Shown: in pieces, positions 1-56,117 of the stretch
Position numbering within the stretch: position 1 is the stretch's first letter
How the letters are laid out: every line of letters begins with the position of its first letter
From: Aquabacter sp. L1I39
Lineage (GTDB): Bacteria; Pseudomonadota; Alphaproteobacteria; Rhizobiales; Xanthobacteraceae
Assembly (NCBI RefSeq): GCF_017742835.1
Contig: NZ_CP072392.1
Span: forward strand, 4,960,180 to 5,024,179
Direction: 5' to 3'
Length of the DNA stretch: 64,000 nt
Notes under the pieces: model-generated
The model's database searches: none
The model's input: only the letters and a program-made list of their open reading frames with translations
What the model was told of the DNA's origin: nothing
Program-made: the position numbers and the translations under genes

Positions 1-519
1 GTGACCTTCAACGCGCAGGGCAATTACCGCACGCCCCAGTCCATCGCCACCTTCATCCGCGACCTTTTGCCGGGATTGGACTTCGACGCCCGCAATCCCC
101 TGCCGGGCCTCGGGGTCGGAGAACACCAGTGCAAGACGCCGGCAGATGTGGCCCGCAGAGTGGGCGCGGTGGTGACGGAATACCTGAAGCAGGGCTTCAA
201 GGCGCAGGATATTGTGGTCCTGTCGCTGCGCGGGCTCGGCTCAGCCACGCTCGCGCACGCGGCCAAGGTCGGCGCTTTCACGCTCGCACGCCCCACCGGC
301 ATTTATGATCCGCAAGGCAACCAGATCATGGACAGCGGGCAGATCCGCTTCGACACGATCTTTCGGTTCAAAGGGCAGGAGGCGGATGCGGTCATCATCA
401 CCGACGTGCCGCCCCTTTCTGCTGATCCCACGGTCACGTCCGCCTCCCGCCTCCTTTTTACTGCCCTCACACGGGCGAAGGTGCGCGCGGACATCCTCTA
501 TGGACCCGCCCCCGGCTGA
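1..519 (+). CDS. UvrD/Rep-type helicase, C-terminal part (5' end outside window)
   Basis: The reading frame is open from the first base, so the gene starts upstream and only about the last 172 residues are here. They carry the end of a superfamily 1 helicase: NYRTPQSIATFI resembles motif IV, FRFKGQEADAVII resembles motif V, and LLFTALTRAKV is a good motif VI (the VALTRA type that contacts ATP). The Walker A and B motifs would lie off the left edge. The gene is followed on the same strand by a small coiled-coil gene, an AddB-like nuclease and an AddA-like helicase, so it probably belongs to one DNA-processing operon. The N-terminal domain, for example NERD, cannot be judged. Confidence 0.8.
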   Translation: MTFNAQGNYRTPQSIATFIRDLLPGLDFDARNPLPGLGVGEHQCKTPADVARRVGAVVTEYLKQGFKAQDIVVLSLRGLGSATLAHAAKVGAFTLARPTGIYDPQGNQIMDSGQIRFDTIFRFKGQEADAVIITDVPPLSADPTVTSASRLLFTALTRAKVRADILYGPAPG

Positions 520-583
520 CGGACGACCGGGACTGTCGTAATTGCGGGCCATGAGAGGGTCTTGTGAAACCTGGGAATGTGCC

Positions 584-847
584 ATGGTCGAAACCGAAGA
601 CGATTTGCGCCGCAAGATCGCCCGCCTGGAAGACAGGAATGCACGGCTGACGGCCATGGTGGAGGACCTGCATCGCAAATGGGGCGAGGCGGAGGATCAG
701 GCCTCCCGCCTCGCAAAGCTGCTCGTCGCCGCCGCTGAGAAGGCCAACCTAGAGGCCTCCTCTTCATCGCGTGGCACGCCCGGTGCTGTCGCGGATCGGC
801 AGGGCGACACCAAGATGGCAGCCGGCCCGGGCAAGTCGGACAGCTAG
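584..847 (+). CDS. small coiled-coil protein of unknown function
   Basis: An 87-residue product starting MVETEDDLRRK. Residues 1-50 are rich in Glu, Arg and Leu with heptad-like spacing and look like one alpha-helical coiled coil. The C-terminal 30 residues are Ser/Gly-rich and probably disordered. No enzymatic motif is visible. An upstream in-frame ATG at 551 and a TTG at 542 would add 11-14 residues; 584 was chosen because the helix begins there. It lies between two helicase/nuclease genes, so it may be a small partner subunit, but that is only positional inference. Confidence 0.5.
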   Translation: MVETEDDLRRKIARLEDRNARLTAMVEDLHRKWGEAEDQASRLAKLLVAAAEKANLEASSSSRGTPGAVADRQGDTKMAAGPGKSDS

Positions 848-871
848 AAGAGTCGGGGCGGGGAGGGGACC

Positions 872-6500: not shown

Positions 6501-6728
6501 GCCCGCGTCAGCGCCGCGCTGGACCTAGTGGCACGGGGCGAGGCCGGCCTCGCGATCATCGATCACAAAAGCGATGCCGTCTCCGATTGCGACGCCCGCT
6601 TCGTCCATCACTGGCCGCAACTTTCCGCCTATGAAGCGGCCCTGCGCACTCTGGGCTTCGCGCGCGCGCCCATTTTGATGGGCATCCATTGGCTGGGGCG
6701 GGGAGCGGTGACGTACGGTGTGAAGTAA
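3558..6728 (+). CDS. AddA-like UvrD helicase with C-terminal PD-(D/E)XK nuclease
   Basis: A 1056-residue superfamily 1A helicase-nuclease. Motifs occur in order: Walker A GAGAGKT (10-16), DEFQDT with Asp349-Glu350, VKQAIMGFQGAD, NWRSS, WHASKGREW (from 695) and LLYVALTRARD (from 771). A RecB-type nuclease ends the protein, with IIDHKSD (Asp1002, Lys1004). It would unwind and degrade DNA ends together with the AddB-like partner encoded just upstream. The ATG at 3558 was chosen because it sits after aggaggggg and gives a Walker A near the N-terminus. The open frame extends 49 codons further upstream, but that part overlaps the AddB-like gene. Confidence 0.9.
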   Translation: MPDIRIVPAGAGAGKTHHIKQTLLDWVKEGAVRPERILAVTFTEAGASELRQRIRASLIAEGRMEGALAVDRAYVSTIHGLGLRLLTEHALAAGASPAPRLLSDEERDLLIRTELPHADDLAEVSADLARYGYRFALGTTPEAEFRGRVFETVSLLATMGPRGLDPTLPARAEAAICATYGAAQGEAQALATRLHGAVAALLKRFPGSLSRPDMNKTARDTFRGDHQTLRAAQDLARLERDWGLWVALSDLRLTRRGTPTPEGYDDLARAVMEAASALSSHPGPLEDACRHARCLITGAQQILKGYAARKRALGVIDFTDMVADAGRLLREDARIRAAVLGEIDCVIVDEFQDTNPAQFALLWPLIQGAPRAIIVGDVKQAIMGFQGADARLMEALVTRFASGVAPLDRNWRSSPRIMAFVNGVGAQLFPGRYDALTPTQPDGTGSALEVVVTQAPRTGGGTLRPYHHLAAHLSAFLARPDTRIRDRQSGALRPPGPGDVAVLCPTHKQCQSYAAALAQLGVPVRVAGTGWWTSPIVQAARFALQVADDPQDRHAALCFATLGPPALPLETALKQMLEGGALDHPALERLRALAASRPGDTVRALLGAAIAAAGLRDWADLQDDPAQARADLLRLEAEAEGFLATHRDMRAAAGFHGFGVKVFLGWMESRQGERGFDQRPNPTGNVADGVEILTWHASKGREWPVVAVVGLDQEFGPRAGGWRAACEDYGDLDGLLGRTHLTHLPKFHAAATNERFLADEAPQAQDTARRLLYVALTRARDVLVLEWPETFAQKAEAGEKPPFSGAALLVASGMRIEPGKIRLGKASFPARTSFCGKEMPPECEGEAPARASSLARLGRRAIAPRPMLPDGGPALLVPSGLDAGLSAPPVGLATDVIGPAAPMPPEVFASATDRGTALHDMLRILLIRPAMADRAAARLGLSGETCSILARQAEALRAWLESRGYGTLMTEVPIEVQLPGGARVSAALDLVARGEAGLAIIDHKSDAVSDCDARFVHHWPQLSAYEAALRTLGFARAPILMGIHWLGRGAVTYGVK

Positions 6729-6749
6729 AGAGATCGCGGAGGAAGCAGC

Positions 6750-7784
6750 GTGGCCCAGGACACCATACGCCTTGAGAAGGCGGCGAACCTGCTGAGGCTC
6801 GCCCAAGCGCTTGCGGCTTCGGCGGAAGGGCTCACGCTGGACGAGATCGCCAGCCAGTTCTCGGTCAACCGGCGCACCGCCGAGCGCATGCGCAACGCGG
6901 TGCAAGACCTGTTTCCCGGTTTCGAAACGGTGGATGAGGGCAGGTTCAAGCGCTTTCGCATCAGGGGAGGGCTCGGCGCCTTTTTCATCGCGCCGAGCGT
7001 CAGCGAGCTTGCGGAGCTGGAGACCGCGTGCAAGGGGCTCCAGCAGGCCGGCCACCAACCGCGTGCCGCCTTGCTGCGAGCCTTGCAGACCAAGATCACC
7101 GCCGCCCTGCGCGACTCCACGCGCCTTAAGATGGCCACCGACATGGAGGCCCTGTGCCGGGCCGAGGCCATTGCCCGGCATGTGGGTCCCCATGCCATCA
7201 CCGATGAGGCCACCCTTCAGGTGCTGCGGGAAGCGCTGATCGCCATGAAGCGCGTGCGCTTTTCCTATCCCCGGCAGGATCGGCCGGAAGGCTATGTGCG
7301 CACCGTCGTCCCCTATGGCCTCCTGTTTGGCGCCAATGCCTACCTCGTGGGCCGCGAGGCGGGGCGCCCCGATGCGGTGCTCTGGCGCCTCGACCGCATG
7401 CGGGCCCTGAAGATGACCGCCCAGGCCGGCGGGCCGCCGGAAAACTTCAACCTCGATGCCTATGCCGCCCGGTCCTTCGGCACCTACCAGGAACCCCCGG
7501 CTCGCGTGGTGCTGCGCTTCGCCCCCGAGGCGACGGAGGCGGCGCGCATGGTGTTCCATCCCACCCAGGACATCCGAAGTCTGGAAGACGGCCGGTTGGA
7601 AGTGACTTTCGTGGCCGGCGGGCAGTTGGAAATGGTGCGCCACCTCTTCGGTTGGGGCGCCTCGGTGGAGATCGTCGAGCCGCCCGAGCTTCGCGACCGG
7701 ATGATTGCGGAGCTGAAGGCGGCGCTGGCGGCCCACGAACGCCCCCCGCGGACCCGTTCCAAGGGCACACGCGGCAAGACTTGA
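6750..7784 (+). CDS. WYL-domain transcriptional regulator
   Basis: A 344-residue protein with a DeoR/HTH_11-like winged helix at about residues 10-60 (LTLDEIASQFSVNRRTAERMR). A WYL domain lies around residues 160-215, with RVRFSYPRQD, a VVPYGLLFG turn and LWRLDRMRAL. A WCX-like C-terminal extension runs to about 325. WYL domains bind nucleic-acid or nucleotide ligands and often control defence and DNA-damage genes. The GTG start at 6750 follows gcggaggaag. The gene lies 21 bp after the AddA-like gene on the same strand, so it may regulate this operon. Confidence 0.88.
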   Translation: MAQDTIRLEKAANLLRLAQALAASAEGLTLDEIASQFSVNRRTAERMRNAVQDLFPGFETVDEGRFKRFRIRGGLGAFFIAPSVSELAELETACKGLQQAGHQPRAALLRALQTKITAALRDSTRLKMATDMEALCRAEAIARHVGPHAITDEATLQVLREALIAMKRVRFSYPRQDRPEGYVRTVVPYGLLFGANAYLVGREAGRPDAVLWRLDRMRALKMTAQAGGPPENFNLDAYAARSFGTYQEPPARVVLRFAPEATEAARMVFHPTQDIRSLEDGRLEVTFVAGGQLEMVRHLFGWGASVEIVEPPELRDRMIAELKAALAAHERPPRTRSKGTRGKT

Positions 7785-7811
7785 GGGCGCCCGGGTGCGG
7801 CGAGGATCCCG

Positions 7812-9149
7812 TCAGGGCTTTGCCATCGGAGCGGGCGGCAAGGAGGTGGGGGCTGCGGGGATGGGATCTGCGGGGCTGAGTTCGGTCAGGTCGGTGCCGA
7901 GTGCGTCCCTGATCTTCTGGACGGCCGCCAGTATCTTTCCCGCCACATCGGTTTCCGGACCGCGATGGCCCCTTTCCCGCTCCGCGATCTGGACCCACGG
8001 CTCGGGGTTGGCCCAGAAATCTGCCGGCAATGGACACAGGTCGTTTTCCACTTTGGGCAGAAACACCCACGCCCAAAGGTCGTCGCCCCATTTTTCCGAG
8101 GCCGCCAGACCCGTCAGGCGAGAGGCATATGCGCGCCCTTCAGCAATGCGCACGGGATCTCGCGCGTTTTTCTCCTCGCGCCGCATGAGGCCGATGGCCA
8201 TCTTTTCAAACGCCTGCACCCGCACGATGAAGGGGATCTGGCTCGCAGTCTCGAAATTCAATGTGAAACCGTCATTCTTGAATTCGGATTTCAGCAGGCC
8301 GGCGCCTTCTTGGTTGCCGATATCTGCCACGAGCGCTTTGAACAGCCCTCTTTTCATCTCTATGAGCGAGCGCTGGACATCGAACGCGGAACGGATGAAG
8401 TCCGAACGGCCGGACATCAGGCTGGCAAGAGCGTCATCTTGGTTCATGTCACGCATGCCGACAAACTCCGCTTTGATCTGTGCTTGAATTTCTTCGATAA
8501 AGTTCGCCACGCGGGGCGAGCGGCATGCCATTTTGCAGGCATCCAGCCACGAGGGGTCCCCCAGCCGAGGCGATCGTCCGAGGTCCCGATAGCTGAGGCA
8601 GACGAGTGTTCCGTCTCGCTGTCTTTCCTCCGCCACCTGGTGATCCAGACTGCCTTTTGAAGGCAGCCGACCATCGGCGGTCAGGTAGACGATGGTGGCC
8701 TTGCGATGTGCCCGGCTGAGTTGATCTGCATATTTGAAGTAGCGCTGCAGCTGCCGGTCCTGATCTGCGGCATAAGGCTTGTTTTCAATGATGAGAAAAC
8801 GCTCATCGCATTCTACGATGATGTCGATGCGGCCATCAGAAAAGCTGTGTTCAATCTCCACACGGGCGTGGTCGCACGCCTTCTCGGACCAGGTGCCGGC
8901 GCCCGGAACCAGGTTCCGCACGAACAGATGGAGGAAGCGCCCCTTTTGCGCGTGGGTCTCACGCGGGTTCAGCAGCCATGCCATCAGCTTCGACCACATG
9001 AGTTCGTCCAGCCACAGGAACTGGAGCGGACTGAAATCGGGCGCGAGGCGATCCTCATATTGCCGTCGCGCGGCTTCCACCGCGGTGCGGCAGGCCGCCA
9101 CTTCGTGCAGAAGCTGGCCGGCCGTCTGGATGGGGTCAATGCGTGTCAA
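7812..9149 (-). CDS. PD-(D/E)XK nuclease superfamily protein (PDDEXK_4-like)
   Basis: A 445-residue protein. The nuclease core lies in the first third: a conserved helix (LDELMWSKLMAWLLNP), then GRIDI with Asp109, then IIENKPYA with Glu122-Asn-Lys124, and a following helix DQLQRYFKYA-like. This order of Asp and Glu-x-Lys with a long unknown C-terminal region matches the PDDEXK_4 family of uncharacterised nucleases, many of which occur in defence neighbourhoods. The TTG start at 9149 was chosen because aggaaagg lies about 8 bp upstream; a longer frame to 9224 begins with low-complexity sequence. It converges on the WYL gene, with only 27 bp between them. Confidence 0.7.
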   Translation of the reverse strand: MTRIDPIQTAGQLLHEVAACRTAVEAARRQYEDRLAPDFSPLQFLWLDELMWSKLMAWLLNPRETHAQKGRFLHLFVRNLVPGAGTWSEKACDHARVEIEHSFSDGRIDIIVECDERFLIIENKPYAADQDRQLQRYFKYADQLSRAHRKATIVYLTADGRLPSKGSLDHQVAEERQRDGTLVCLSYRDLGRSPRLGDPSWLDACKMACRSPRVANFIEEIQAQIKAEFVGMRDMNQDDALASLMSGRSDFIRSAFDVQRSLIEMKRGLFKALVADIGNQEGAGLLKSEFKNDGFTLNFETASQIPFIVRVQAFEKMAIGLMRREEKNARDPVRIAEGRAYASRLTGLAASEKWGDDLWAWVFLPKVENDLCPLPADFWANPEPWVQIAERERGHRGPETDVAGKILAAVQKIRDALGTDLTELSPADPIPAAPTSLPPAPMAKP

Positions 9150-9220
9150 AACTGCACCTTTCCTTTCCCCGGACGCGGTCCTTGCCCGTGCCGTTCGGGC
9201 GGCACCGCATCCATCCCCCC

Positions 9221-9637
9221 TCAAGACCGCCGATAATGCGCGTCGACCGCAAATCGTACGCGCGCGGCCTCAAGGGCGAAGCGGGCGAGGATAGCGCAGC
9301 GGCGCCGGGGCGTGTGGAGGCCCGGATCCGCATAAATGATGAATTCTTCCGGACCGCGCTGATAGACGACGCGACCCCGCGGGAAGTCCTCATATTCATG
9401 GCCGAGGATGCAAGCGGGAAGTCCCAGCTGCGCAAGTCCACGCATCCCGAGGGCGCGCCAGGCCTCCCACGTCTCGAAATGCCCCCGGGGGTGGCCCAGG
9501 CACGCCCCATAGGGCTCCGCTTGCGGCAAGGGCGTGCTGTCGCAGAGCAGAACCGGCCCGCCGGGCGCAGGCACCAGCCAGAAGATGCCGAGCTGGGGCG
9601 CCGGGCGTGCCATCGGGTCGAAAGTGCCCGCCATCAT
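9221..9637 (-). CDS. conserved-looking protein of unknown function (138 aa)
   Basis: The product starts MMAGTFDPMARPAPQLGIFWLV. It is a compact soluble protein with alternating hydrophobic strands and one helix (HFETWEAWRALG), a Tyr/Phe/Arg-rich C-terminus, and no signal peptide or membrane segment. Cysteines are few and no catalytic motif is recognised. The ATG at 9637 overlaps the stop codon of the upstream 41-aa membrane peptide (ATGA), which argues that both are real and translated together. Function is unknown. Confidence 0.55.
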   Translation of the reverse strand: MMAGTFDPMARPAPQLGIFWLVPAPGGPVLLCDSTPLPQAEPYGACLGHPRGHFETWEAWRALGMRGLAQLGLPACILGHEYEDFPRGRVVYQRGPEEFIIYADPGLHTPRRRCAILARFALEAARVRFAVDAHYRRS

Positions 9638-9759
9638 AGCCCCCCGAACATCAGGACGGCGATGATGGCGATCATCAGGCCGAGCAGGCCGAGGCCGACA
9701 AGGATCATGCCCCACAAGATGAGGCCGCGCGGCGTCCGATCGGGTCCAAAAGTCTGCAT
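9634..9759 (-). CDS. small single-pass membrane protein (41 aa)
   Basis: The 41-residue frame starts MQTFGPDRTPRG and continues as one long hydrophobic segment (about residues 12-38, LILWGMILVGLGLLGLMIA) ending FGGL. A short basic N-terminus suggests the N-terminus faces the cytoplasm. A GGAGG site lies just upstream of the start, and the stop overlaps the next gene's start as ATGA. It is too short for homology-based naming. The tight coupling suggests it serves the 138-aa protein, perhaps as a membrane anchor. Confidence 0.5.
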   Translation of the reverse strand: MQTFGPDRTPRGLILWGMILVGLGLLGLMIAIIAVLMFGGL

Positions 9760-9931
9760 GCATCGCCTCCATCCACCGGAACAGGAATGCCTGACCCGTG
9801 CGACAGAATCGGTCGTGCTTGGATTTTGCCACGGTCGCTGCACCGTCGGGGCTGGTCGTTGTCGACGCGCATCATGCGACCGTTTCTGTCGCATATCCGT
9901 GGCATCTCTTCTCTCCCTCACGGAGAGCCTC

Positions 9932-11986
9932 ATGCACCCTTTTGAACGGCATATCCTGGTCCGATACGTCGCGGCCCTCGCCACCGGCGGGAGCGCGGTC
10001 TGGGCGCGTTGGTGGCGGAACACGGAGTTGGCGCACTGGCTGTTGTGCCACCAGGCCGTGCTCGGCCTTCCCGCCCTTCCCACCACGCAGGACGAGAATG
10101 ACCCCTCGTGCAATCTCGCCGCTCGCGATGCTGCGCTCCGGCACTTCACCAGCCTGCGCCAAGGCCGGACGCCCGCGGCCTCGCCCTTGGAGCGCAAGGT
10201 CTCCTGGCTCGGTGACGAGCTGGGCCTCGCCCCGATCGATCGGCCGATCCTCGCCCTCCTGGTGCGGACGGCGACGGTTCCGGAAGTCCACACCCTCGCT
10301 CTGGCCTTGGTGAGCCAGTTCATTCCCGAGCGGCTGCGCATGCCGCACAACATGGATATCGGGCTGAACACCATCGCCGCGCTGCTGGGGCAGATGCCGC
10401 GCGCCGTGAGCCGTCGCCTCACCTGCGAGATGCCGCTGGTGATGTACGGGCTCGTGGACGACCGGCGGGGTCACGACTTTGCCGCTTCCTCGCGCACCTT
10501 GAAGGTGGCGAACGCGTCCCGCTCGACCGCGCAGACGCTGCGCGCCCTCCTGTTCGGCAAGCCCAAGACCACTTCCTTGGCGTGGGAGGACTTCTCCCAT
10601 CTCCAGCGCGACGCGGAGCTGGTGTGCGACCTGCTGAAGGCGGCTTCCCGCAACCGGACGCGGGGCATCAACATCCTGCTCCACGGCGCGCCCGGCACCG
10701 GCAAGACCGCCTTTGCCAGCGCGCTCGCCGCGCGGGCGGGGCTCCACGCGGTGTTCGTGGGCGAATGCGCGGAGGAGGGCGAGGAGCCCGACCGGGAGCA
10801 ACGCATCAGCGCGCTCGCCCTCGCGCAGAAACTCTCCAGCCAGAGCGAGGGGCTGCTCCTGGTCATGGACGAGGCGGAGGACATTTTCGTCGGCGTGGAC
10901 GAGGCCCGCGGCCACAGCCGCCTTGGCGCCAAGGTGTTCATGAACAACCTTGTTGAGGCCAATCCTTGCCCGACGCTCTACATCTCCAACCATCCCCATC
11001 GGCTGGGCCGGGCGGTCCTGCGGCGCATGACCTATGCGGTGGAATTTCCGCGCCTGGATCGCGCGGCCCGCGAGCGGATCGTCCGCCGCTCGGCCACCCG
11101 CCATAAGATCGCGCTCGATCAGCCGGGCCTCCAGGAACTGGTCCGCCTGGACGCGCCCCCCGCGCTTATCGATCATGGCCTGCGGACCGCGCGCCTGTGC
11201 GGGGCGGATGTGAAGGTGGCTGTGCAGGCGGCATCATCGGTGCTGAAGGTGATGGGAGGGCGTCCTGCCCCCGTGGACGCCAAGGCGCGGTTCCACCCCG
11301 CCTTTGCCTGTGCCGACACCGACCTTGCGCGCCTCACCGAGCGGATCGTGGCCAGCGGGCGCCTCGACATTTCCCTGTGCCTCCATGGCCTTCCCGGCAC
11401 CGGCAAGAGTGCCTATGCCCGCTATCTGGCCGAGCGCATGGACCTTGAAGTGCTGGAGAAGCGGGCCAGCGATCTGCTGGGCATGTTCGTCGGCCAGAGC
11501 GAGCAGAACATCGCAGACTGCTTCGAAGAGGCCAGGGCGCGTCGGGCCTTCCTCATTTTCGACGAGGCGGATTCCCTCTTGCGCGACCGCACCGGGGCCA
11601 GTCGGTCCCACGAGGTCAGCCAGGTGAATGAAATGCTCACCTGGATGGAGCGCCACCCCTATCCCTTCGCCTGCACCACCAACTTCGCCGACGCGCTGGA
11701 CCCGGCCGCCGCACGGCGCTTCCTGTTCAAAATCGGGTTCCTGCCCCTTGCCAAGGCCCAGGCTCGCGCTCTCTTCGCCCACACGTTCGGCCTGACCCCG
11801 CCGGCGCACCTGGACGGCCTCTGCCAGCTCACCCCTGGCGATTTTGCGGTGGTGGCCCGCAAGGCGCTGGTGATGGGGGAAACCGAGGCCAACGCCCTGG
11901 TGGAGGCGCTTGCCAGCGAAGTGGAGGCCAAGCCTGGTGGCGCCCGCCAGCCCATCGGCTTCCGGCCACTGGCGTCGACGCCGTGA
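9932..11986 (+). CDS. double AAA+ ATPase (CDC48/FtsH-type central domains)
   Basis: A 684-residue protein with two AAA+ modules. Domain 1 has Walker A GAPGTGKTAFA (near 252) and Walker B LLLVMDEAEDIF (near 308). Domain 2 has GLPGTGKSAYA (near 485) and FLIFDEADSLL (near 543), followed by TGASRSHEVSQVNEML. The N-terminal 200 residues are helical and unfamiliar. The layout suggests a hexameric protein-remodelling machine of unknown target. The start was set at the ATG at 9932 rather than in the frame open back to 9143, because upstream codons cover the minus-strand pair. It follows an operon-like DNA-processing island but has its own 170-bp leader. Confidence 0.85.
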   Translation: MHPFERHILVRYVAALATGGSAVWARWWRNTELAHWLLCHQAVLGLPALPTTQDENDPSCNLAARDAALRHFTSLRQGRTPAASPLERKVSWLGDELGLAPIDRPILALLVRTATVPEVHTLALALVSQFIPERLRMPHNMDIGLNTIAALLGQMPRAVSRRLTCEMPLVMYGLVDDRRGHDFAASSRTLKVANASRSTAQTLRALLFGKPKTTSLAWEDFSHLQRDAELVCDLLKAASRNRTRGINILLHGAPGTGKTAFASALAARAGLHAVFVGECAEEGEEPDREQRISALALAQKLSSQSEGLLLVMDEAEDIFVGVDEARGHSRLGAKVFMNNLVEANPCPTLYISNHPHRLGRAVLRRMTYAVEFPRLDRAARERIVRRSATRHKIALDQPGLQELVRLDAPPALIDHGLRTARLCGADVKVAVQAASSVLKVMGGRPAPVDAKARFHPAFACADTDLARLTERIVASGRLDISLCLHGLPGTGKSAYARYLAERMDLEVLEKRASDLLGMFVGQSEQNIADCFEEARARRAFLIFDEADSLLRDRTGASRSHEVSQVNEMLTWMERHPYPFACTTNFADALDPAAARRFLFKIGFLPLAKAQARALFAHTFGLTPPAHLDGLCQLTPGDFAVVARKALVMGETEANALVEALASEVEAKPGGARQPIGFRPLASTP

Positions 11987-42711: not shown

Positions 42712-45700
42712 TCACCCCGCCGCCCACACATCCTGGAGATAGCGCCCGCTGTCCTCCAGCGCCTTGACCGTCTCGGCGCCGAGCAATTCCGCGAACGCGG
42801 CGTGCACGTCGGGGGCCATGGTGCGGGCATTGCCGCAGATGAGGATGGACGCGCCCGCCGCCACCGCGCCGCGCACGGCATTCCCATGGAGGCGCAGGAG
42901 GTCCTGCACATAGGTCTTCGGCGTCCCCGCCCGGCGGGAGAAGGCCACCGCCAGGAGGCCGAGCGTGCCCTCGGCCTCATAGGCTTCCAGCTCCTCGCGA
43001 TAGAGATAGTCGCTCTCGTCCCGGCAGCCGAAGAAGAGCTGCACCGGGCCCACCTCCATCCCCTGTGCGCGCTGGGCGTGACGCTGCTGGATGAAGCCGC
43101 GCAACGGGGCAAGGCCGGTGCCCGGACCCACCAGGATGAGCGGAACGGTGGGGTCGGCCGGCAGGTGGAAGGTGCTGCCCGTATCCTTCACCAGCACCCG
43201 CACCGACGTGCCCTCGGCGCATTCAGCCAGATAGGTGCTGCACAGCCCGTCATGGCGCACCCCGTCGGCCGAGACGAAATGGTGGACGCCCACGGTGAGC
43301 GTGCACGCCTCCGGCGACAGGAGCGGCGAGGACGAGATGGAATAATAGCGCGGCTTCAGGGCCGGGCGCACGGTGAGCATGGTGGCGAGATCGAGCTTCA
43401 CCGAGGGCACCTGCGCCAGCAGATCCTCCATGCGGGGCTTGGCCTCGGCGACCGCGTGGGGGAAGTCGGCGAGCCAGGCGGCGATGCGGGCGCTATCCGG
43501 CGGGCATTGGGCCGCCTGCGCCCAGGCGCGCAGGTCGCGCCGGGTGACGGGGCCGGCGAGGTCCACATGCTCGGCCAGAAGCTCGCCGACGCTCACCGGC
43601 ACGCCGAACGGCAGGCCGGCTTCGTCGGCGGCGTGGGGATGGAGCGGGGTCAGGAGCACGCGCGTTTCCGGCGCCAGGCCGCAGCGGGCGGCGGCCGCTG
43701 CCACCAAAGCCGGCGGGTTGGTGGGGAAGACGGCCAGATGATCGCCCGCCGCATAGGAGGTGCCGGTGGGCAGCGGGATCTCGATGTGGCGCGTGGAGCC
43801 CTGGGCGCCCGCGCCCAGCAATTCCCGGTTCATGCGCACCGGCACCATCACGGCGCCCGCATCGAGCCGCGTGCCGGAGCGGGGCGCGGCGCCGGAAGCG
43901 GTGCCGGCGAAATTGGCCATTTCCACCTTCACGGCGGGCGCCTCGGCGAAGGCGTCCGCCTCCGCCGCATCTGTGTCCGCCGCACCGCCGAAGGCCGCGT
44001 CCAGCGCCGGCCAGAGTGCGGCGGTCCAGGCCTCCACCGCCGCCTCATAATCGCCGTCCGCATCCGCCGTGCCCGCCTCCAGGAGGGGCGTGCCGCCAAG
44101 TGCGGCGAGGCGGGTGGCGACGGTCTTGGGGAATTTCTGGAAGGTCTGGTGCCACTGGGTGTTTCCGCAGCCGAGCACCGCATGGCGTACCCCCGCACAG
44201 GCGCCCGCCGGGGCGCTCGCCAGCCATTGGGCAAAGCGCGCGGCATTGTCCGGAGGGGTGCCATTATAGGTGGAGGTGATGATCACGACGGCCCCGTCCG
44301 TGGGCCAGGGCTGGCCCACCTGCTCGTCCAGCTCCGCCACGCTGGCCGCATAGCCCCGCGCCGCCGCCTGCTGGGCGAGGGCGAGCGCGATGTCGCGGCA
44401 GCCGCCCATGTTTGAGCCGTAGAGCAGGCGCAAGGGCCGCCCGCCCCCCGCCACCGGAGCGGCGGACACGGCCTCCGCCTTGGCGGCGGCGGGGCGCACA
44501 GGGAAGCGGCCCTTCACCTCCGGCCGGCGCTCCAGCAGCATGTCCAGATGGTCGGGCTTCACGGTGAGCGCCTGCTTGTGGCGCAGCACGTAATGGGGAT
44601 CCTTGGGCCGGACCGTGAAGCGCTGCACGAGGCGTGCCAGCACCATCTTGGCTTCCAGCAGGGCGAACTGGAAGCCGATGCAGGAACGCGCGCCCATGCC
44701 GAAGGGATGGTAGGCGTGGGGATGGTGGAGCTTCTCCTCCTCCGGCGCGAAGCGGTCGGGGCGGAAGACGGCGGCATCGGCGCCCCAGAAGCGCGGATTG
44801 GCATGCAAGGTGGTGAGCGACACGAAGATGCGCTCGCCCTTCTTCACATCGTAGCGCCCGTTTCCGAGCGTGGCGTCGCGGGTGGCATAGCGCGGGAACA
44901 TGGGCACGGGCGGGCACAGCCGCAGCGCCTCCTTCAGCACCCGCTGGGTGTAGTCGAGCCGCCCCACATCCTCATAAGTGGGGATGTAGGAGAAGTCGCG
45001 GCCGAGCACCCGGTCCACCTCGGCGATGAGCTTTTCCATCGCCTCGGGATTTTTCCACAGGTGGTAGAGCGCATAGGCCAGCATGCCCGAGGTGGTCTCG
45101 TGCCCGGCAATAAGCAGCACGATGAGCTGGCCGCGAATATTGTCGTCCGGCAGCTTCTGGCCGGTCACCCGGTCGGGGGTGGTGAGCATGACCTGGAGCA
45201 GGTCGGCGGGCACCGTCTCGCCTGACGCCATGGCGGCGCGGCGCTCGGCGATGATGGCCTCCACCTCCTCCAGCATCACCTTGTCGGCCGCCGTGCGGCG
45301 CTTGCGGACCTCGTGATAGAAGACCTCCGGCAACAGGCGCTTGGGCTCGGCCATGGCGTCGGTGAGCACCACATTCATGGCCTCCACGAAGGCGGGCAGC
45401 TCCGGCGTATCGATCGCCCCATAGCGGCGGTTGAAGGCGGCATAGGAAATGGCCTCGAAGGTCATCCGCGTCATCAGCTCAGTGGCAAGGAAGCTCTCGC
45501 CGGGGCCGAGGCGTTCGAGATGGGCGAGCAGGTCGTCCGCCACCTCGACGATGCGGCCGTAATAGTTTTTCAGCGCCGTGGCGCCGAAGGCGGGGGCGAG
45601 GATGCGGTGGGCCTGGTGCCAGAGCGGGTCATCGTCGGAGGCGGTGAAGAGCGCGCTGCCGACGCTCTTGTCGGCGAGGTTGCGCAGGCCGCCGCGCCCT

Positions 45701-46191
45701 TCCACCAGCTTGGCGAACACGTCCGGCGCGGCGCACATCTCCGCCACCATGTCCGCGTCCGCGCACAGATAGGTGCGCTTGCCGACCACCTCGAAGGCGA
45801 AGAAATCGCCATGCTTGGCGTGCAACGCGCCGAAGGCGGCCACCACGCCGTCCGGATTGTGCAGCTCCGGCAGGTTGCCGACGATGGGATAGGGCCGGGG
45901 GCCGGGCACCGCCTGGTGGGCGGCGGGCGCGGGCGCAGCAGGGGCCGGCGCCGCATGCTCCACCACAAGACGCAAGGGAAGGCCGTCCGGCAGGCTGTCG
46001 TCGAGGGCGACGGTGATGCCGTCCGCCGTCTCCACATGAAAGGCCACCTCCGCCGCAAGTCCCGCCGCCGCGCGCACGGCCTCGCGCACCGCCGCGCCGC
46101 TGGCGCCGGGGAACCAGCCCACCTTGAGGGTGTCGGCCCCGTGCGCGAGATCCACACGCTTCAGGGCGGGAGGCGCAGGGGTCTGCGGCAT
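42712..46191 (-). CDS. self-sufficient P450/NADPH-P450 reductase fusion (CYP102/BM3-like) with extra N-terminal domain
   Basis: A 1159-residue fusion. A P450 domain starts near residue 95 (GPRPYPIVGNLPEL), with I-helix AGHETTSG, EALRLCPP, and heme loop FGMGARSCIGFQ (Cys504). The usual FMN, FAD and NADPH domains follow: GSNMGGCRDIALAL, YYSISSSP, and a VWAAG-type tail. Substrate-pocket features such as LFTAS match CYP102A. CYP102s hydroxylate fatty acids near the omega end. Residues 1-73 form a separate beta-strand-rich domain (VDLAHGADTLKVGW, VALDDSLPDGLPLRL), joined by an Ala/Pro linker, which BM3 (about 1049 aa) lacks. Last gene in the MFS-GT-P450 operon. Confidence 0.95.
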   Translation of the reverse strand: MPQTPAPPALKRVDLAHGADTLKVGWFPGASGAAVREAVRAAAGLAAEVAFHVETADGITVALDDSLPDGLPLRLVVEHAAPAPAAPAPAAHQAVPGPRPYPIVGNLPELHNPDGVVAAFGALHAKHGDFFAFEVVGKRTYLCADADMVAEMCAAPDVFAKLVEGRGGLRNLADKSVGSALFTASDDDPLWHQAHRILAPAFGATALKNYYGRIVEVADDLLAHLERLGPGESFLATELMTRMTFEAISYAAFNRRYGAIDTPELPAFVEAMNVVLTDAMAEPKRLLPEVFYHEVRKRRTAADKVMLEEVEAIIAERRAAMASGETVPADLLQVMLTTPDRVTGQKLPDDNIRGQLIVLLIAGHETTSGMLAYALYHLWKNPEAMEKLIAEVDRVLGRDFSYIPTYEDVGRLDYTQRVLKEALRLCPPVPMFPRYATRDATLGNGRYDVKKGERIFVSLTTLHANPRFWGADAAVFRPDRFAPEEEKLHHPHAYHPFGMGARSCIGFQFALLEAKMVLARLVQRFTVRPKDPHYVLRHKQALTVKPDHLDMLLERRPEVKGRFPVRPAAAKAEAVSAAPVAGGGRPLRLLYGSNMGGCRDIALALAQQAAARGYAASVAELDEQVGQPWPTDGAVVIITSTYNGTPPDNAARFAQWLASAPAGACAGVRHAVLGCGNTQWHQTFQKFPKTVATRLAALGGTPLLEAGTADADGDYEAAVEAWTAALWPALDAAFGGAADTDAAEADAFAEAPAVKVEMANFAGTASGAAPRSGTRLDAGAVMVPVRMNRELLGAGAQGSTRHIEIPLPTGTSYAAGDHLAVFPTNPPALVAAAAARCGLAPETRVLLTPLHPHAADEAGLPFGVPVSVGELLAEHVDLAGPVTRRDLRAWAQAAQCPPDSARIAAWLADFPHAVAEAKPRMEDLLAQVPSVKLDLATMLTVRPALKPRYYSISSSPLLSPEACTLTVGVHHFVSADGVRHDGLCSTYLAECAEGTSVRVLVKDTGSTFHLPADPTVPLILVGPGTGLAPLRGFIQQRHAQRAQGMEVGPVQLFFGCRDESDYLYREELEAYEAEGTLGLLAVAFSRRAGTPKTYVQDLLRLHGNAVRGAVAAGASILICGNARTMAPDVHAAFAELLGAETVKALEDSGRYLQDVWAAG

Positions 46192-46260
46192 GGGGAACTC
46201 CTTGGGACGTGTTTTCGGCCCCTCGGGGCCTCGTTTGGGATGCGGGCCGGATCGGGACGG

Positions 46261-47529
46261 TCAAGCGGCGGTGGACGCGCGCGGCGCGCGGCGGACCATG
46301 GCCTCGATGGCGGCCACGTTGCGGGCCATGTCCCCCTCCGGGTCCATGGCGGCGGCCACCGCCTTGGCACGGGCGGCCATGTCGGTGTCGGCGAGCACCG
46401 CGCGCAAGGCACGCTCCAGGGTCTCCTGGCTGACGCGCGTGTGGGGCAGCACCGCGCCCACCCCCATGCGGCGCAGGCGCTCGGCATTGTCCGGCTGGTC
46501 GAAGCCCACGGGAATGGTCAGAACCGGCACGCCGGCCCGCAGCGCCTCCGCGCAGCCGCCGACGCCGCCATGCTGAACCACCGCGGCCGCATGGGGAAAG
46601 AGGCTCGCATGGGGGGCAAAGTCCAGCGCGAGGACCTGGTCCGCGGGAGCCTTGGGCGGCTCATTCTTGCCCATGAGCAGGACAGCCCGCCGGCCGAGGA
46701 CTTGCGCCGTGTCGGCGGCGATCTGGTAGAAGTCGTGGGCGAGGTGCACCACGGTGGTGCCGAGCGTGAACACCACCGGCGCCGGCCCCGCTGCCAGGAA
46801 GGCGGTGATGCGCGCGGCGGTTTCCGGGTTGGGCGCCTGGGCCAGGAAGGGAAAGCCGGTCTGGACCGAGGCCGCCGGCCAGTCCCGCTGGAGCGGGCCG
46901 AAGGCGGGGGAGAACAGGGCCAGCACCAGATGGGGCGAGAACTTGCCCTCGAACAGGACACCGCCATGGGTCTCCACCCCCAGCTCCTGCGCCAGAGCCG
47001 TGAGCGGCGCGCCCCACTTATTGGACATGCGGCGGGCGATGTTGAGCAGGATGCGCTGCGGCCAGGTGCCAAGATGGCGCAGATGGTAGCCGGCCGGGAA
47101 CCAGGTGAGGACGCACGGGTCGAGCGCGGACATGAAGGTGGTGGGCGAGAGCATCACATTGGCCCAGGGCAGGCCGAGCTTGGCCGCCACCAGCGGCGCC
47201 ACATAGACCAGTTCCCCCACCACCAGGGCATCGGCGCCCTGTGCGGCGGCCATGAGGTCCGCATAGGTCTCGCGCACGCGCGGGAAGAGGGTTTCCAGAT
47301 AGAGGCGCTTTCCGCCATGGACCGGGTCGCCGAAAATATGGGTCAGCACCTCCGGCGGAAAGTCCGGCCGCAGGGGATGGAAGGGCAGGCCGAGGGCGGT
47401 GATGCGGCTCTCATAGGCGGCGGGGGCGGCGACCACCGGCTCATGGCCCTGTGCCTTCAGGGCCTGTGCCACCGCCAGCATGGGGAAGAGGTCGCCGAGC
47501 GAGCCGAGGGAGGCGAGGACGATGCGCAT
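46261..47529 (-). CDS. GT1-family glycosyltransferase (MGT/UGT-like)
   Basis: A 422-residue GT-B enzyme. N-terminal Rossmann start MRIVLASLGSLGDLFPML, then PSPTTFMS-type acceptor region, VVFTLGTTVV, and the donor motif VVQHGGVGGCAEALRAG with PVGFDQPDNAERL. These resemble UDP-sugar-dependent transferases (rhamnolipid RhlB, sterol UGT, macrolide GTs). It is cytosolic. Its start shares one base with the MFS stop, and the P450 follows after 69 bp. A glycosyl transfer to a P450-made hydroxyl is the simplest reading. Confidence 0.93.
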   Translation of the reverse strand: MRIVLASLGSLGDLFPMLAVAQALKAQGHEPVVAAPAAYESRITALGLPFHPLRPDFPPEVLTHIFGDPVHGGKRLYLETLFPRVRETYADLMAAAQGADALVVGELVYVAPLVAAKLGLPWANVMLSPTTFMSALDPCVLTWFPAGYHLRHLGTWPQRILLNIARRMSNKWGAPLTALAQELGVETHGGVLFEGKFSPHLVLALFSPAFGPLQRDWPAASVQTGFPFLAQAPNPETAARITAFLAAGPAPVVFTLGTTVVHLAHDFYQIAADTAQVLGRRAVLLMGKNEPPKAPADQVLALDFAPHASLFPHAAAVVQHGGVGGCAEALRAGVPVLTIPVGFDQPDNAERLRRMGVGAVLPHTRVSQETLERALRAVLADTDMAARAKAVAAAMDPEGDMARNVAAIEAMVRRAPRASTAA

Positions 47530-49079
47530 CAGATGGTCACCTTTACGGGCGCGCCGGTCGTGTTGGGACGGCCGCGCATCAGGACGATCACGGCGAGCAA
47601 GGCGACAGCGAGCATGATGAATCCCACATAATAGCCATCGGCGATGCTGCGCGCCGCGCTGAGCCGCAGGGCCTCGGCCACCGCCGGTGCCTGCGCCGCG
47701 AGCGCCCGCGCGGCCTCCTCATTGCCGTAAATGGCTTGCCCCATGATGACTTCCAGCTGCGCGCGCGCGGCCCCCTCGACGCCCGAGGCCTCGGCGATGG
47801 CGTGGAAGCGTCCGCGCTCCATGGCCACCACCACCGTGCCAATGGCCGCCATGCCCATGGCGCCGCCCAGCTGACGCACCGTATCCAGGGCGCCAAAGGC
47901 CCGGCCCCGCTGGCTCTCCGCCACCTGGGCGGTGCCGTCCGTATAGGTCTGGGAGACGCAAAGGCCGATGCCGGCGCCGAGCAGGATCAAGGCGGGCACC
48001 ATATGGGCGAAATCCATGCGCGGCAGGGCCTGGGTCTCCAGGAAGAATCCGAGCGTGGCGAGGCTGAGGCCCGCCACCACCGGCAGCTTCGCGCCATGGC
48101 GGTCATACAGCACCCCCGAGAGCGGGGCGCAGATCAACATGGGCACCAGAAAGAGCAGCATGGCCAGGCCCGACTCCAGGGGCGTGAAATGCAGCACCCG
48201 CTGGAGAAAGATGGCGCCATAGGCTGACTGCCCCACAATGGCGCTTTGGACACAGAAGAGGGCGACCCCATCGGCGCTGAATTGCCGCCGCGTGAACAGG
48301 CGCACATCCACCAGCGGGTCGTCTGCCCGCGCCTGGGTGAGAATGAACACCCCCAGCAGCAGGCATCCGCTGGCGATCAGGCCGACGGTGAGCGGCGAGG
48401 TCCAGCCCCAGGAATGGCTCTGCTGCAGGCCGAGCACCATGGGGCCGAGCGCCGCCGCCAAGAGCAAGCTGTGGGCCGGCCGAAAAGTGCCGCTGCGCGG
48501 GCTGGCGGCGGCAGGCCCCGCCTTTGCCAGCAGCACCAGCACGAGGGCGGCGAGCGGCAGATTGACGAAGAAGGCCCAGCGCCAGTTCCCCGCCTGCACC
48601 AGCGCCCCGCAGACGATGGGGCCGATGACCATGGCCAGCCCCCCGAGCCCGCTATAGAGGCCCATGGCGCGCCCGCGCCCAGTGGGGCCGAAGGCCTCGG
48701 TGGCCAGCAGCGCGGCGGCGGGCGCCATCATGATATTGCCCAGCCCCTCCAAGGCGCGCCCGCACAGGAGCATGGGCAGGTTCACCGAAAGCCCGCTCAC
48801 GGCCGAGCCGAAGGCGAACAGCACCACGCCGGCGCGGAACATGCGCGCCCGGCCCGCGACGTCCGCCAGACGCCCGCCGGTGGCGATGGCGACGGCCACG
48901 GTGAGCGCATAGAGGGTGATGATCCATTGCTGCGCCCCGTGGCTCAGCATCAGGTCGCGCTGGATGGAGGGGAGCGCCACGGCGGTGCCGGTGCCGTCGA
49001 TCATGATCATGCCCAGGGCGCCGGCCGCCGCAAAGACCGTGAACCAGCGCTGCCGGCTCTCTATGGACGCCTCACTCAT
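47529..49079 (-). CDS. DHA2-family MFS drug/lipid exporter (EmrB/QacA-like)
   Basis: A 516-residue MFS protein with about 14 membrane segments: MIMIDGTGTAVALPSIQRDL in the first segment and GGRLADVAGRARMF in the A loop, as in DHA2 exporters. It would export a hydrophobic or amphipathic product by proton antiport. The 1-bp stop-start overlap with the glycosyltransferase ties it to that enzyme. It heads the three-gene operon. Confidence 0.93.
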   Translation of the reverse strand: MSEASIESRQRWFTVFAAAGALGMIMIDGTGTAVALPSIQRDLMLSHGAQQWIITLYALTVAVAIATGGRLADVAGRARMFRAGVVLFAFGSAVSGLSVNLPMLLCGRALEGLGNIMMAPAAALLATEAFGPTGRGRAMGLYSGLGGLAMVIGPIVCGALVQAGNWRWAFFVNLPLAALVLVLLAKAGPAAASPRSGTFRPAHSLLLAAALGPMVLGLQQSHSWGWTSPLTVGLIASGCLLLGVFILTQARADDPLVDVRLFTRRQFSADGVALFCVQSAIVGQSAYGAIFLQRVLHFTPLESGLAMLLFLVPMLICAPLSGVLYDRHGAKLPVVAGLSLATLGFFLETQALPRMDFAHMVPALILLGAGIGLCVSQTYTDGTAQVAESQRGRAFGALDTVRQLGGAMGMAAIGTVVVAMERGRFHAIAEASGVEGAARAQLEVIMGQAIYGNEEAARALAAQAPAVAEALRLSAARSIADGYYVGFIMLAVALLAVIVLMRGRPNTTGAPVKVTI

Positions 49080-49284
49080 GCGACGGACCTCAAGCGGACC
49101 GATACGCCCCGCCGGGACGATCAGGTGCGGGAACGGTTACATGGTCCGGAGTGTCCAGTGCACGGCAGAGCTTGTCCAGGGCCTGCACCGGCGGCGGCGT
49201 CCATCATTCATCGGAGCTTGTTCCGGGGACATCATTTCCGGATTGAAGCCCGGCGATCCGCTGCAGCGGCACCGGCCGGGTGGC

Positions 49285-53075: not shown

Positions 53076-56000
53076 TCAGAAGGCGACTGAGAGGCGGCCC
53101 TGGACGGCGTTGTTCTGCGTCTCTCCGGCCAGCTGCCCCACATAGGACACGCCGAGCCGGGAATTGGCGGTCATCAGCCAGTCCAGGCCGAGGCCGATGA
53201 GGGCCGTGTCCCGCGCGACCGGTGCGCCGGCGATGGAGAAGGCCGGGCCGCCGCTCACCGCGAACGCCTCGGTGAGCTGCGGGGTCAGGTCGCCGAAGGC
53301 ATGCTGCCAGGCCAGCGAGCCGCGCACGGACAGGCGCGTGGTGCCGGCGGAAAAGTCCTGGCTCGCCCGCACGCCCAACGTGGTGAGCGTGTTGTCCTGG
53401 GTGAGGCCGCCGGAGGTGAGCGCCGCCGAGCCGCCGCTTTCGGTGAAGCCGTCAAGGTTGAGATGCACATAGGCCAAGCCCGCGAACGGCTCCAGCGTGG
53501 TGCCACCGGCCATCTTCATGCCGTAGCCCAATTCGCCGAACACCTGGCCCGTGCCGCCATTCTGGCTGGCGGAGAGGCTCTGATAGAGGCCCGGCAGGGC
53601 GACACCCCGGGAAGTGGAGACGTCGTGCCAGGTGTAGCTGGCGCCATAGCGCAGGTTCAGCGCGCCGAAGCGGTTGGCCCCATAAAGGGCGAGGTCGTAA
53701 TTGTCGCTGGTGCCGGAGCCGGAGACTGCATCGGTGGAATAGCTGGTCTGGCTGTAGCCGCCGGCGATACCCACGCGCCAGTTGGGCGCCACCTCGCCGT
53801 CGAAGCCGCCGAGGAAGCCGCCCACCGAGGTGGTGACCGACGAGGCCGCGCCCCCGCTCACACTGCCCCAGCCGCCATAGCCCTGGCCCCAGGCGGTGAA
53901 GCCGCCAAAGGTGGCGGCGGGCGCCGCCGGCGCGTCCGCATAGCCGAGCGGGGCGAGGGCGGCGGTGGCGCCGTCCCCGTCGCTGAGGCGCCCCGTGATG
54001 GACTGACGCAGATAGGTGGACTGGGCCAGCAGCACCGAGCCGGTCGCCGCATGGATTTCGCCCGTGAGGGTCGAAAGCGCCTGCGGCGCCTGCGCCGGGG
54101 TCAGCGTCACCGCCGCCTGGAGCACCGGGCTGGCATTGGACATGCGGGCGACCGCGCTCGCGGCGGCATTGGCATTGGGCGTGCCGCCGGCCGTAGACAA
54201 GGCGGCGACATTCGGCGCCACGGTCACCAGGAGATCGGTGCCCGAAGCCACCACGGAAGAGGTGGACAGGAAGGCGCCGCCTGTCTCGATGGACGAGAAG
54301 GCGCCGGACACGCCGCCGGCGGAGCTGATCAGGTCATAGGTGCCGAGCGGGGCGAGGCTGCCATTGGTACCCACCAAGGCGAGGGTGCCCGCGAGCGTGG
54401 TCGTGCCGGTCACCACCAGCTTGTCGCTGGTGTTCCCCGTGCCGGTCTCGGCCATATAGAGCGAGGTGTTCGTGAACACCGCATTGCCGCCAACCGTCAG
54501 GGTGCCGATGGACAGGCCGGGTGCCAGCACGCCGGCATTGGTCAGGTTGCCGGCGATGCGGCCGGTGCCGCCGAGCAGTCCGGCATTGCTCACATCGCCG
54601 CCGACCGCGCCGGTGGTGAGGAAGGTGGCCGGGGCCGCGACGGACACATTGCCGGTGAGCGAGCCTGTGAGCGCGAGCGTGCCGGCCTGCACGTCGGTTC
54701 CGCCCGCATAGGTGTTGTCGCCGGCGAGCAGCAGCGTGCCGGTGCCCTGCTTGACGAGCCCGCCCGGCCCGCTGATGTCGTTGCTCCAGATGTCAAAGGC
54801 GTTCAACCCGCCCTTGGCCGCATCCATGGTCACGGTCACCGTGCTGGCGAAGGCGCCATAGCCGCCCGCCGCGGCATAGGGATTGATGCGCGCCCAGCCC
54901 GACCCGTCGTCCAGCGGCACGCCGGAGGGCAATTCGGTGCTGGCGATCACGTCGCGGATCTGGGCGTCGGTCAAATAGGGGAAGCGGGTGCGGAACAGGA
55001 GTTCGGCATTCTGCGGCACCACCGGCGCCAGCGTGGTGTCGCCCATGGAGGGCAGACCGTAGGTCAGGTACCAGGTGGATTGCTCGCGCGCGGCGCGGTA
55101 GGTGGCGGCGGAGGGCACCATGCCGGCCGAGAGACAGGCCTTCAGGTTGGCCCCGCAGGCGGCATAGACCGGCGCGTTCGCGCTGGTGCCGAGGGCTTCC
55201 ACCAAAGCCGTGCGGTTGGCCTCGAACGAGGTGGTGAAGTCGGCCGAATAATCGGCATTGTCGGCCATCAGTTCGGTCAGGGACTGCAAGGCGATGATGC
55301 GGCCGCCGATGACGTCGAGGGCATAATGCATGCCGATGATGTTGCGGCTCAGGCCATATTGCTGGGCGGAGGCGAACATGTCCTGCCAATAGGTGGGCAG
55401 GAGCATTCCGTAATACATGCCAGTGATGAAGCCGCGCATGGAATGGCCGCTGGCGAACGAGGATTCGCCGACATTCTCCGCCCATTCCTCCTCCTGGATC
55501 GTGACCGCCGCCTGCGAGGTGGTGGACGTGGTCCAGGGATTGCCGCTGATGGCCGGCAGCGCCACGAAGGGGCGGGGGTTACCCACCAGGGCGCCGGTGG
55601 CGTTATAGGCGGTCTTATAGATTTCCAGCGTCTGGTAGTAGTCCTTCACATCGCCGGAATGAAGGACGCCCGTGGCGCCCCAGAGATCGCCGAGAATGTT
55701 CCCCGGCATGGTCTCGTCCAGGGACCATTTGACCATCTGGTCGCTGATTGGCGACTGAACCATGCTCCAGAGGTGCGCCGTGATGCTGCCCAGCTTCTTG
55801 CCGGGAAAGTTGACGGCGTTCGCCGCCGCCAGATCCCGCTGCTCGGCGGTGGAGGTGGAGTAGATCTGGGTGGTGACCGCGGCATTCTGCTGGAGAAGGG
55901 CATTGCCCTCCGGCGAGGACAAAAGCGTGCCGAAGACGCTCACATCATTGATCTGGTTCTGGATCTGCACTGCCTCGCAGGCATCCGTGGTGCAGAAGGT

Positions 56001-56117
56001 GGCCTGCGCCAGAGCGGGCGCCGCCGCGCACAGGGCCGGTAGTGAGGCGCCCGCGAAGAGCGCAGCCATCTTCATTCGCGCGCGGCCAGACCGCGCCCGT
56101 TCAAAACGAGCTTTCAT
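53076..56117 (-). CDS. autotransporter with PAP2 acid-phosphatase passenger
   Basis: A 1013-residue protein. Signal peptide at about residues 16-38 (MKMAALFAGASLPALCAAAPA). The passenger's first half is a class A-like phosphatase with PAP2 motifs: ASGHSM (His225) and SRNIIGMHYALD (His264, Asp268). The first motif's Arg-Pro appears as NPRPF, but its Lys is not at the usual spacing. PATR-like repeats follow (KQGTGTLLLAGDNTYAGGT), then a 280-residue outer-membrane barrel ending RLSVAF (Phe). It probably displays or releases a phosphatase outside the cell. The start lies 41 codons into the open frame. Confidence 0.88.
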   Translation of the reverse strand: MKARFERARSGRARMKMAALFAGASLPALCAAAPALAQATFCTTDACEAVQIQNQINDVSVFGTLLSSPEGNALLQQNAAVTTQIYSTSTAEQRDLAAANAVNFPGKKLGSITAHLWSMVQSPISDQMVKWSLDETMPGNILGDLWGATGVLHSGDVKDYYQTLEIYKTAYNATGALVGNPRPFVALPAISGNPWTTSTTSQAAVTIQEEEWAENVGESSFASGHSMRGFITGMYYGMLLPTYWQDMFASAQQYGLSRNIIGMHYALDVIGGRIIALQSLTELMADNADYSADFTTSFEANRTALVEALGTSANAPVYAACGANLKACLSAGMVPSAATYRAAREQSTWYLTYGLPSMGDTTLAPVVPQNAELLFRTRFPYLTDAQIRDVIASTELPSGVPLDDGSGWARINPYAAAGGYGAFASTVTVTMDAAKGGLNAFDIWSNDISGPGGLVKQGTGTLLLAGDNTYAGGTDVQAGTLALTGSLTGNVSVAAPATFLTTGAVGGDVSNAGLLGGTGRIAGNLTNAGVLAPGLSIGTLTVGGNAVFTNTSLYMAETGTGNTSDKLVVTGTTTLAGTLALVGTNGSLAPLGTYDLISSAGGVSGAFSSIETGGAFLSTSSVVASGTDLLVTVAPNVAALSTAGGTPNANAAASAVARMSNASPVLQAAVTLTPAQAPQALSTLTGEIHAATGSVLLAQSTYLRQSITGRLSDGDGATAALAPLGYADAPAAPAATFGGFTAWGQGYGGWGSVSGGAASSVTTSVGGFLGGFDGEVAPNWRVGIAGGYSQTSYSTDAVSGSGTSDNYDLALYGANRFGALNLRYGASYTWHDVSTSRGVALPGLYQSLSASQNGGTGQVFGELGYGMKMAGGTTLEPFAGLAYVHLNLDGFTESGGSAALTSGGLTQDNTLTTLGVRASQDFSAGTTRLSVRGSLAWQHAFGDLTPQLTEAFAVSGGPAFSIAGAPVARDTALIGLGLDWLMTANSRLGVSYVGQLAGETQNNAVQGRLSVAF

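Follow-up and report, generated by a model that had tools for sequence, protein, structure and literature searches.

A conserved exporter, glycosyltransferase and P450-reductase gene trio in Aquabacter sp. L1I39, a candidate glycolipid operon

Layout and domain composition of the locus

The window analyzed here, 64,000 bp of the Aquabacter sp. L1I39 genome (contig NZ_CP072392.1, positions 4,960,180-5,024,179), contains three consecutive open reading frames on the minus strand. In the order of transcription they encode a DHA2/EmrB-like exporter of the major facilitator superfamily (MFS; P0003, 516 amino acids, 47529..49079), a GT1-type glycosyltransferase (P0002, 422 amino acids, 46261..47529) and a CYP102-like cytochrome P450-reductase fusion (P0001, 1159 amino acids, 42712..46191). 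The genome is a single contig of 5.39 Mb. The three frames had been proposed in an original prediction made from the sequence alone, which did not mention their strand or the leading position of the exporter; codon-based gene calling yielded the identical genes, and Pfam backs the families (MFS_1, GT1 models, P450 and reductase domains). The spacing described in that prediction is also present: the exporter and glycosyltransferase genes share one base (A) in a TGATG stop/start overlap (47527..47531, minus strand), and 69 bp separate the glycosyltransferase gene from the P450 gene, whose ATG is preceded by a ribosome-binding-site-like AAGGAG (46198..46203, minus strand). Alignment of the exporter upstream regions of six genomes (Segnochrobactrum, introduced below, was left out) revealed a promoter-like block, TGGACA-17 nt-GACACT in the window (49150..49178, minus strand, some 70 bp before the exporter start), with TGGACA or TGTACA, 17 nt, and GACAAT, GACACT, GAAACT or GAAAGT across the six. 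A generic promoter scan for the strict sigma-70 consensus gave no hit, this block included; a terminator scan found only the number expected by chance.

The exporter matches MFS_1 with 154 bits. Its original assignment to the DHA2 group holds in part, as the score against the DHA2/EmrB model TIGR00711 (219.3 bits) is just under the cut-off of 230.2; judged from this match, the protein may be called DHA2-like only. A crude hydropathy scan gave 11 segments; DHA2/EmrB exporters have 14 transmembrane helices. The label of a UGT-like glycosyltransferase is borne out by two GT1 models scoring above their curated cut-offs, EryCIII-like_C (59.8 versus 31.7 bits) and UDPGT (54.4 versus 19.5 bits), which place a GT1-type donor-binding domain at the C-terminus. 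Close to the N-terminus, a G[ST]xGD motif occurs in 111 of 120 homologs among the matches listed; its Asp may be the catalytic base, as in GtfB-type enzymes. Macrolide tailoring or inactivation was considered and rejected, the protein scoring far below the cut-offs of macrolide-type NCBIfam models and the flanks scanned holding no polyketide or steroid gene.

Four domains of the P450 fusion, encoded on the minus strand, are above the Pfam cut-offs: the haem domain (PF00067, 293 bits, residues 96-533, 44593..45906), the flavodoxin domain binding flavin mononucleotide (FMN; PF00258, residues 589-722, 44026..44427), the flavin adenine dinucleotide (FAD)-binding domain (PF00667, residues 781-987, 43231..43851) and the NAD(P)-binding domain (PF00175, residues 1020-1130, 42802..43134). 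The haem thiolate motif FGMGARSCIG is at residue 497, with Cys504 invariant in all 87 aligned sequences; the oxygen-binding stretch across these sequences is AGH[ED]TT, and Phe182, which we take to be the equivalent of Phe87 of P450 BM3, is Phe in 85 of them. The nearest solved chains are CYP102-type bifunctional P450/NADPH-P450 reductases, so that the CYP102-like label given originally stands. Identity to ordinary CYP102-like fusions is about 36-42%; the rule of CYP naming sets family membership at about 40% or more. In the comparison with the nearest relative among the genomes used, Aquabacter sp. P-9, the haem domain (window 44527-45909) is 87.6% identical (ps 0.205) and the flavin part 96.2% (ps 0.104); the lower similarity of the haem domain, silent sites included, possibly reflects recombination.

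The P450 carries a further domain, absent from the original prediction: a predicted ubiquitin-like (PB1/CIDE-like) domain of about 70 residues at its N-terminus (residues 11-78, 45958..46161, minus strand), delineated by alignment, an AlphaFold model and fold matches. Of 87 aligned members of an extended P450 subfamily, which takes in proteins of Myxococcota/'Deltaproteobacteria', 84 have this domain; its AlphaFold confidence (pLDDT, predicted local distance difference test) is about 88. Sequence profiles gave fainter signals. The Pfam PB1 model did not reach its gathering score: it had no match in the window P450 and weak ones in five of 26 members (best E-value 0.0013). A profile search of the Protein Data Bank returned mainly designed alanine-rich proteins, taken to be compositional matches, and NBR1 at an E-value of 0.12. 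No convincing partner protein with the same domain was seen, as the only matches in seven genomes had E-values of at least 0.18. Among 398 genomes of Pseudomonadota, in each of which up to 15 candidates were scored, the domain was found (E-value up to 1e-4) in two genomes with the trio only, and it had no match in the plasmid records searched. The domain probably tethers or oligomerizes the P450.

Recurrence of the trio in other genomes

The order exporter-glycosyltransferase-P450 recurs in six other genomes: Aquabacter sp. P-9 (identity to the window proteins 96, 98 and 92%, respectively), Azorhizobium caulinodans ORS 571, Pseudoxanthobacter soli DSM 19599 (where the glycosyltransferase was missed by the gene caller and shown by tblastn and an open frame), Ancylobacter vacuolatus, Ancylobacter polymorphus (where the glycosyltransferase frame is broken) and Segnochrobactrum spirostomi (57, 52 and 63%). 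On a short contig of a metagenome-assembled genome the glycosyltransferase gene also adjoins the P450 gene, both being cut by the contig ends. Of the seven trio genomes, six retain the TGATG overlap, and Segnochrobactrum has a 55-bp gap instead.

The order is kept in two families with different flanks. BLASTP of the called neighbors against the window genes showed flanks common to the Aquabacter pair only; outside it there were scattered matches, e.g., ABC-transporter genes (25-49%) and a LysR gene (27%). Ten flanking genes from five genomes matched the Pfam families GNAT, MinC, LysR, glyoxalase, ABC, SIS, aminotransferase, Crp and Rieske, one gene having no match. No polyketide or steroid genes were found among the flanking genes scanned, Pfam having covered only part of these genes; the conserved co-location without such neighbors, which had been named as favorable to the idea of a glycolipid operon, was therefore found. 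As the same order occurs in six further genomes with flanks differing outside the Aquabacter pair, chance adjacency is excluded, and by this comparison of gene order the three genes proposed as an operon form a real conserved unit.

Co-occurrence was controlled in samples of genomes. In a set of 150 relatives that includes the window's own genome, P450 fusions (E-value up to 1e-100) were found in 23 genomes. Five of these, Aquabacter sp. L1I39 and P-9, A. caulinodans, A. polymorphus and P. soli, have the long P450 (at least 75% identity, the match reaching residue 1-6), while in the remaining 18 the fusion is 38-42% identical and the match starts at residue 68-103. Glycosyltransferase matches (E-value up to 1e-20) were obtained for 21 genomes of this set, the window's own included, with identity of at least 73% in exactly the five genomes with the long P450 and 34% as the next best value; none of the 18 genomes with an ordinary CYP102-like fusion has such a match at that threshold. 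An order-level sample (397 genomes) yielded one more long P450, that of Segnochrobactrum, which carries the trio. Beyond the window and A. polymorphus, no close glycosyltransferase was found in 385 class-level and 398 phylum-level genomes, Segnochrobactrum being outside both samples. In protein cluster lists (120 each for glycosyltransferase and P450, among the matches listed), equal size of the longest contig served as a proxy for location on the same contig: 11 of the 20 best glycosyltransferase clusters match a P450 cluster in this size, compared with none of the next 100. Plasmid-borne relatives comprise glycosyltransferases in 10 records (29-42% identity) and one P450 match (35.8%).

These data also bear on a reading of the locus as three independent genes held together without a common product. 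The P450 gene has its own gap, varying from 25 to 117 bp among the trio loci, and its own Shine-Dalgarno-like site, as might be expected of an independent gene. However, the order is retained in two families despite the different flanks, and the close glycosyltransferase was never found without the long P450 in the genomes searched; we regard independence of the three genes as very improbable.

Known systems and candidate function

Several known systems resemble the trio in part. First, a rhamnolipid-type operon of Burkholderia glumae (plasmid NZ_CP100139.1; the names rhlA, rhlB and rhlC were assigned in this analysis, the record giving product names) encodes a related GT1 enzyme (31% identity), and the very next gene is that of a DHA2 MFS pump (28% identical to the exporter described here). 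It differs in that the glycosyltransferase gene comes first, whereas the exporter is first in the trio, in that RhlA makes the hydroxy-acyl acceptor, and in having GT2 (rhlC), outer-membrane and HlyD genes. Three stretches with operons of this type (L047, L048 and L058, the last being a wider stretch around the locus L045) have in common hydrolase, glycosyltransferase, DHA2 pump, GT2 (rhlC), outer-membrane and HlyD genes (63-78%), with no P450 among them. The original prediction knew of no equivalent bacterial locus; this statement needs care, because bacterial glycolipid operons with a glycosyltransferase and a DHA2 exporter exist, although a P450 is not among the genes common to these three stretches. 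Second, P450 BM3 and its relatives in the CYP102 family share the haem-FMN-FAD fusion; the trio P450 has in addition the N-terminal ubiquitin-like domain. Third, the yeast sophorolipid cluster follows the same logic of a P450, a glucosyltransferase and an exporter; it is eukaryotic, with a P450 of another family (CYP52-type) and further enzymes (accessory acetyltransferase and lactone esterase). Its glucosyltransferase is UGTA1. The conserved unit described here consists of three genes only, without accessory genes of the sophorolipid type; only A. vacuolatus has a lone GNAT acetyltransferase gene about 1.2 kb upstream. Finally, plasmid 1 of Polaromonas sp. JS666 (positions 1-10251 of locus L050) has a related GT1 gene (33%) two genes from a P450 gene, with HlyD and TolC-family export genes near; it differs by a stand-alone P450, several further glycosyltransferases and a different exporter, and is possibly another locus for a glycosylated metabolite.

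For one of the trio proteins, expression of an ortholog has very probably been achieved before. A. caulinodans has two P450s, only the trio one with a frame of fusion length. Yildirim et al. reportedly expressed in 2023 a new self-sufficient P450 from this bacterium, 'P450 AZC1', which is very probably the A. caulinodans ortholog, since the trio P450 is the only fusion-length one of the two. The A. caulinodans genome paper likewise counts two P450s. Already known are thus the enzyme classes, the pairing of a glycosyltransferase with a DHA2 pump in rhamnolipid operons and, very probably, an expressed P450 ortholog; open-licence titles and beginnings of abstracts, among the matches listed, contained neither a CYP102-glycosyltransferase-MFS operon nor a PB1-type or ubiquitin-like domain on a P450.

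With middling confidence, we suggest a self-contained operon for the synthesis and export of an amphiphile that is hydroxylated by the P450 and then glycosylated; a hydroxy fatty acid or fatty-acyl compound bearing a sugar is the most likely product. In this scheme the P450, supplied by its own reductase part and probably tethered or oligomerized through the ubiquitin-like domain, would hydroxylate an alkyl chain; the GT1 enzyme would transfer a sugar from an activated sugar onto the new hydroxyl; and the MFS pump would export the product. A substrate of the fatty-acid type is proposed because the P450 is nearest to CYP102, whose members hydroxylate fatty acids (PMC11900375), and by analogy to rhamnolipid operons. 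The exported glycosylated hydroxy fatty acid of the original prediction gains from the conserved trio, from the scanned flanks free of polyketide and steroid genes and from the related core of glycosyltransferase and DHA2 pump in rhamnolipid-type operons.

Several observations weigh against such a product. In a tree of 51 sequences, the trio glycosyltransferases, including that of Segnochrobactrum, form one clade with two database proteins (support 100/98), and the sister group consists of 13 database proteins (89/88), five with Chthoniobacterales or Terrimicrobiaceae names; the glycosyltransferases of L045, L047 and L048, called RhlB from their operon context, form a separate, distant clade that excludes the trio. 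In phmmer searches, the trio glycosyltransferase matched RhlB-type proteins with 140-154 bits, no higher than several glycosyltransferases of unassigned role. RhlA was found in none of five trio genomes (the window's own, A. caulinodans, A. polymorphus, P. soli and Segnochrobactrum) at an E-value up to 1e-10, while the control genome G814 matched at 7.8e-146. Because of the tree placement and the missing RhlA, identity of the trio glycosyltransferase with RhlB was rejected. In A. polymorphus, the glycosyltransferase frame starting at the conserved overlap (L026, 8001-8087) ends after 29 codons and homology resumes in another frame, which may be a frameshift or an assembly error. The positions presumably corresponding to the carboxylate anchors of BM3 are also variable: in the 33 closest sequences the Arg47 equivalent is Lys in 10 and otherwise mainly Gly or Ala, the next position is Arg or Lys in 25, and the Tyr51 equivalent is Phe or Leu. 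This pattern neither supports nor excludes a carboxylate anchor.

The difference from BM3 at these positions, in the numbering we assume, would suit an operon acting on another endogenous lipid or signal, e.g., a hopanoid, a carotenoid or an acyl-homoserine lactone, instead of a free fatty acid, and GT1 enzymes glycosylate many lipophilic acceptors. Such a substrate seems distinctly unlikely, as no hopanoid, carotenoid or luxI/luxR-type gene occurs among the Pfam-scanned flanking genes; the rest of the genomes, outside this search, could hold some.

The main rival to the glycolipid proposal is a detoxification operon, in which a toxic compound from plants or microbes would be oxidized by the P450 (phase I), glycosylated by the glycosyltransferase (phase II) and expelled through the MFS pump (phase III). 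All three functions fit, the chemistry being the same as for a glycolipid; among MFS models, those of multidrug type come closest to the pump, and the glycosyltransferase also scores to antibiotic-inactivating glycosyltransferase models, all below cut-offs. The A. caulinodans genome paper places the P450s of that bacterium under protection against toxic compounds, which speaks against a glycolipid product as well, and recombinant P450 BM3 is described to reduce gossypol (PMC12115826). On the other hand, the orthologous loci have no adjacent regulator in common, and the nearest family of the P450, CYP102, is mainly a fatty-acid family, so that detoxification appears somewhat unlikely. The literature used also includes PMC11210130, PMC11173547 and PMC2443382.

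Other genes in the window and significance

Beyond the trio, the window contains a gene for a 999-amino-acid protein (53076-56075, minus strand) combining a PAP2-phosphatase-like domain, an unusual passenger, with an autotransporter beta-domain. Genes for a PD-(D/E)XK nuclease, a UvrD helicase with a PD-(D/E)XK domain and a WYL regulator follow in a row (872-7784, plus strand), an arrangement like that of an AddAB-type nuclease-helicase operon to which a WYL gene is added. Next to them (7812-11986), a PDDEXK_4 protein matches the candidate models PDC-S26 of PADLOC, and an AAA protein with two P-loops matches IetA models; by these matches, the two are possible defence genes.

A ubiquitin-like N-terminal domain on the P450 would be an unusual organization for a widely used biocatalyst family, and the existing work on P450 AZC1 could be reinterpreted in its light. 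In a bolder version, which we consider improbable, the trio would represent an RhlA-independent bacterial route to exported sophorolipid-like glycosides of fatty acids hydroxylated by the P450, in which the ubiquitin-like domain polymerizes the P450 or docks it with the glycosyltransferase and defines a P450 subfamily across Hyphomicrobiales and Myxococcota. If the product is indeed a hydroxy-fatty-acid glycoside, the locus would be the bacterial equivalent of the yeast sophorolipid pathway in a compact form of three genes, useful for biosurfactants.

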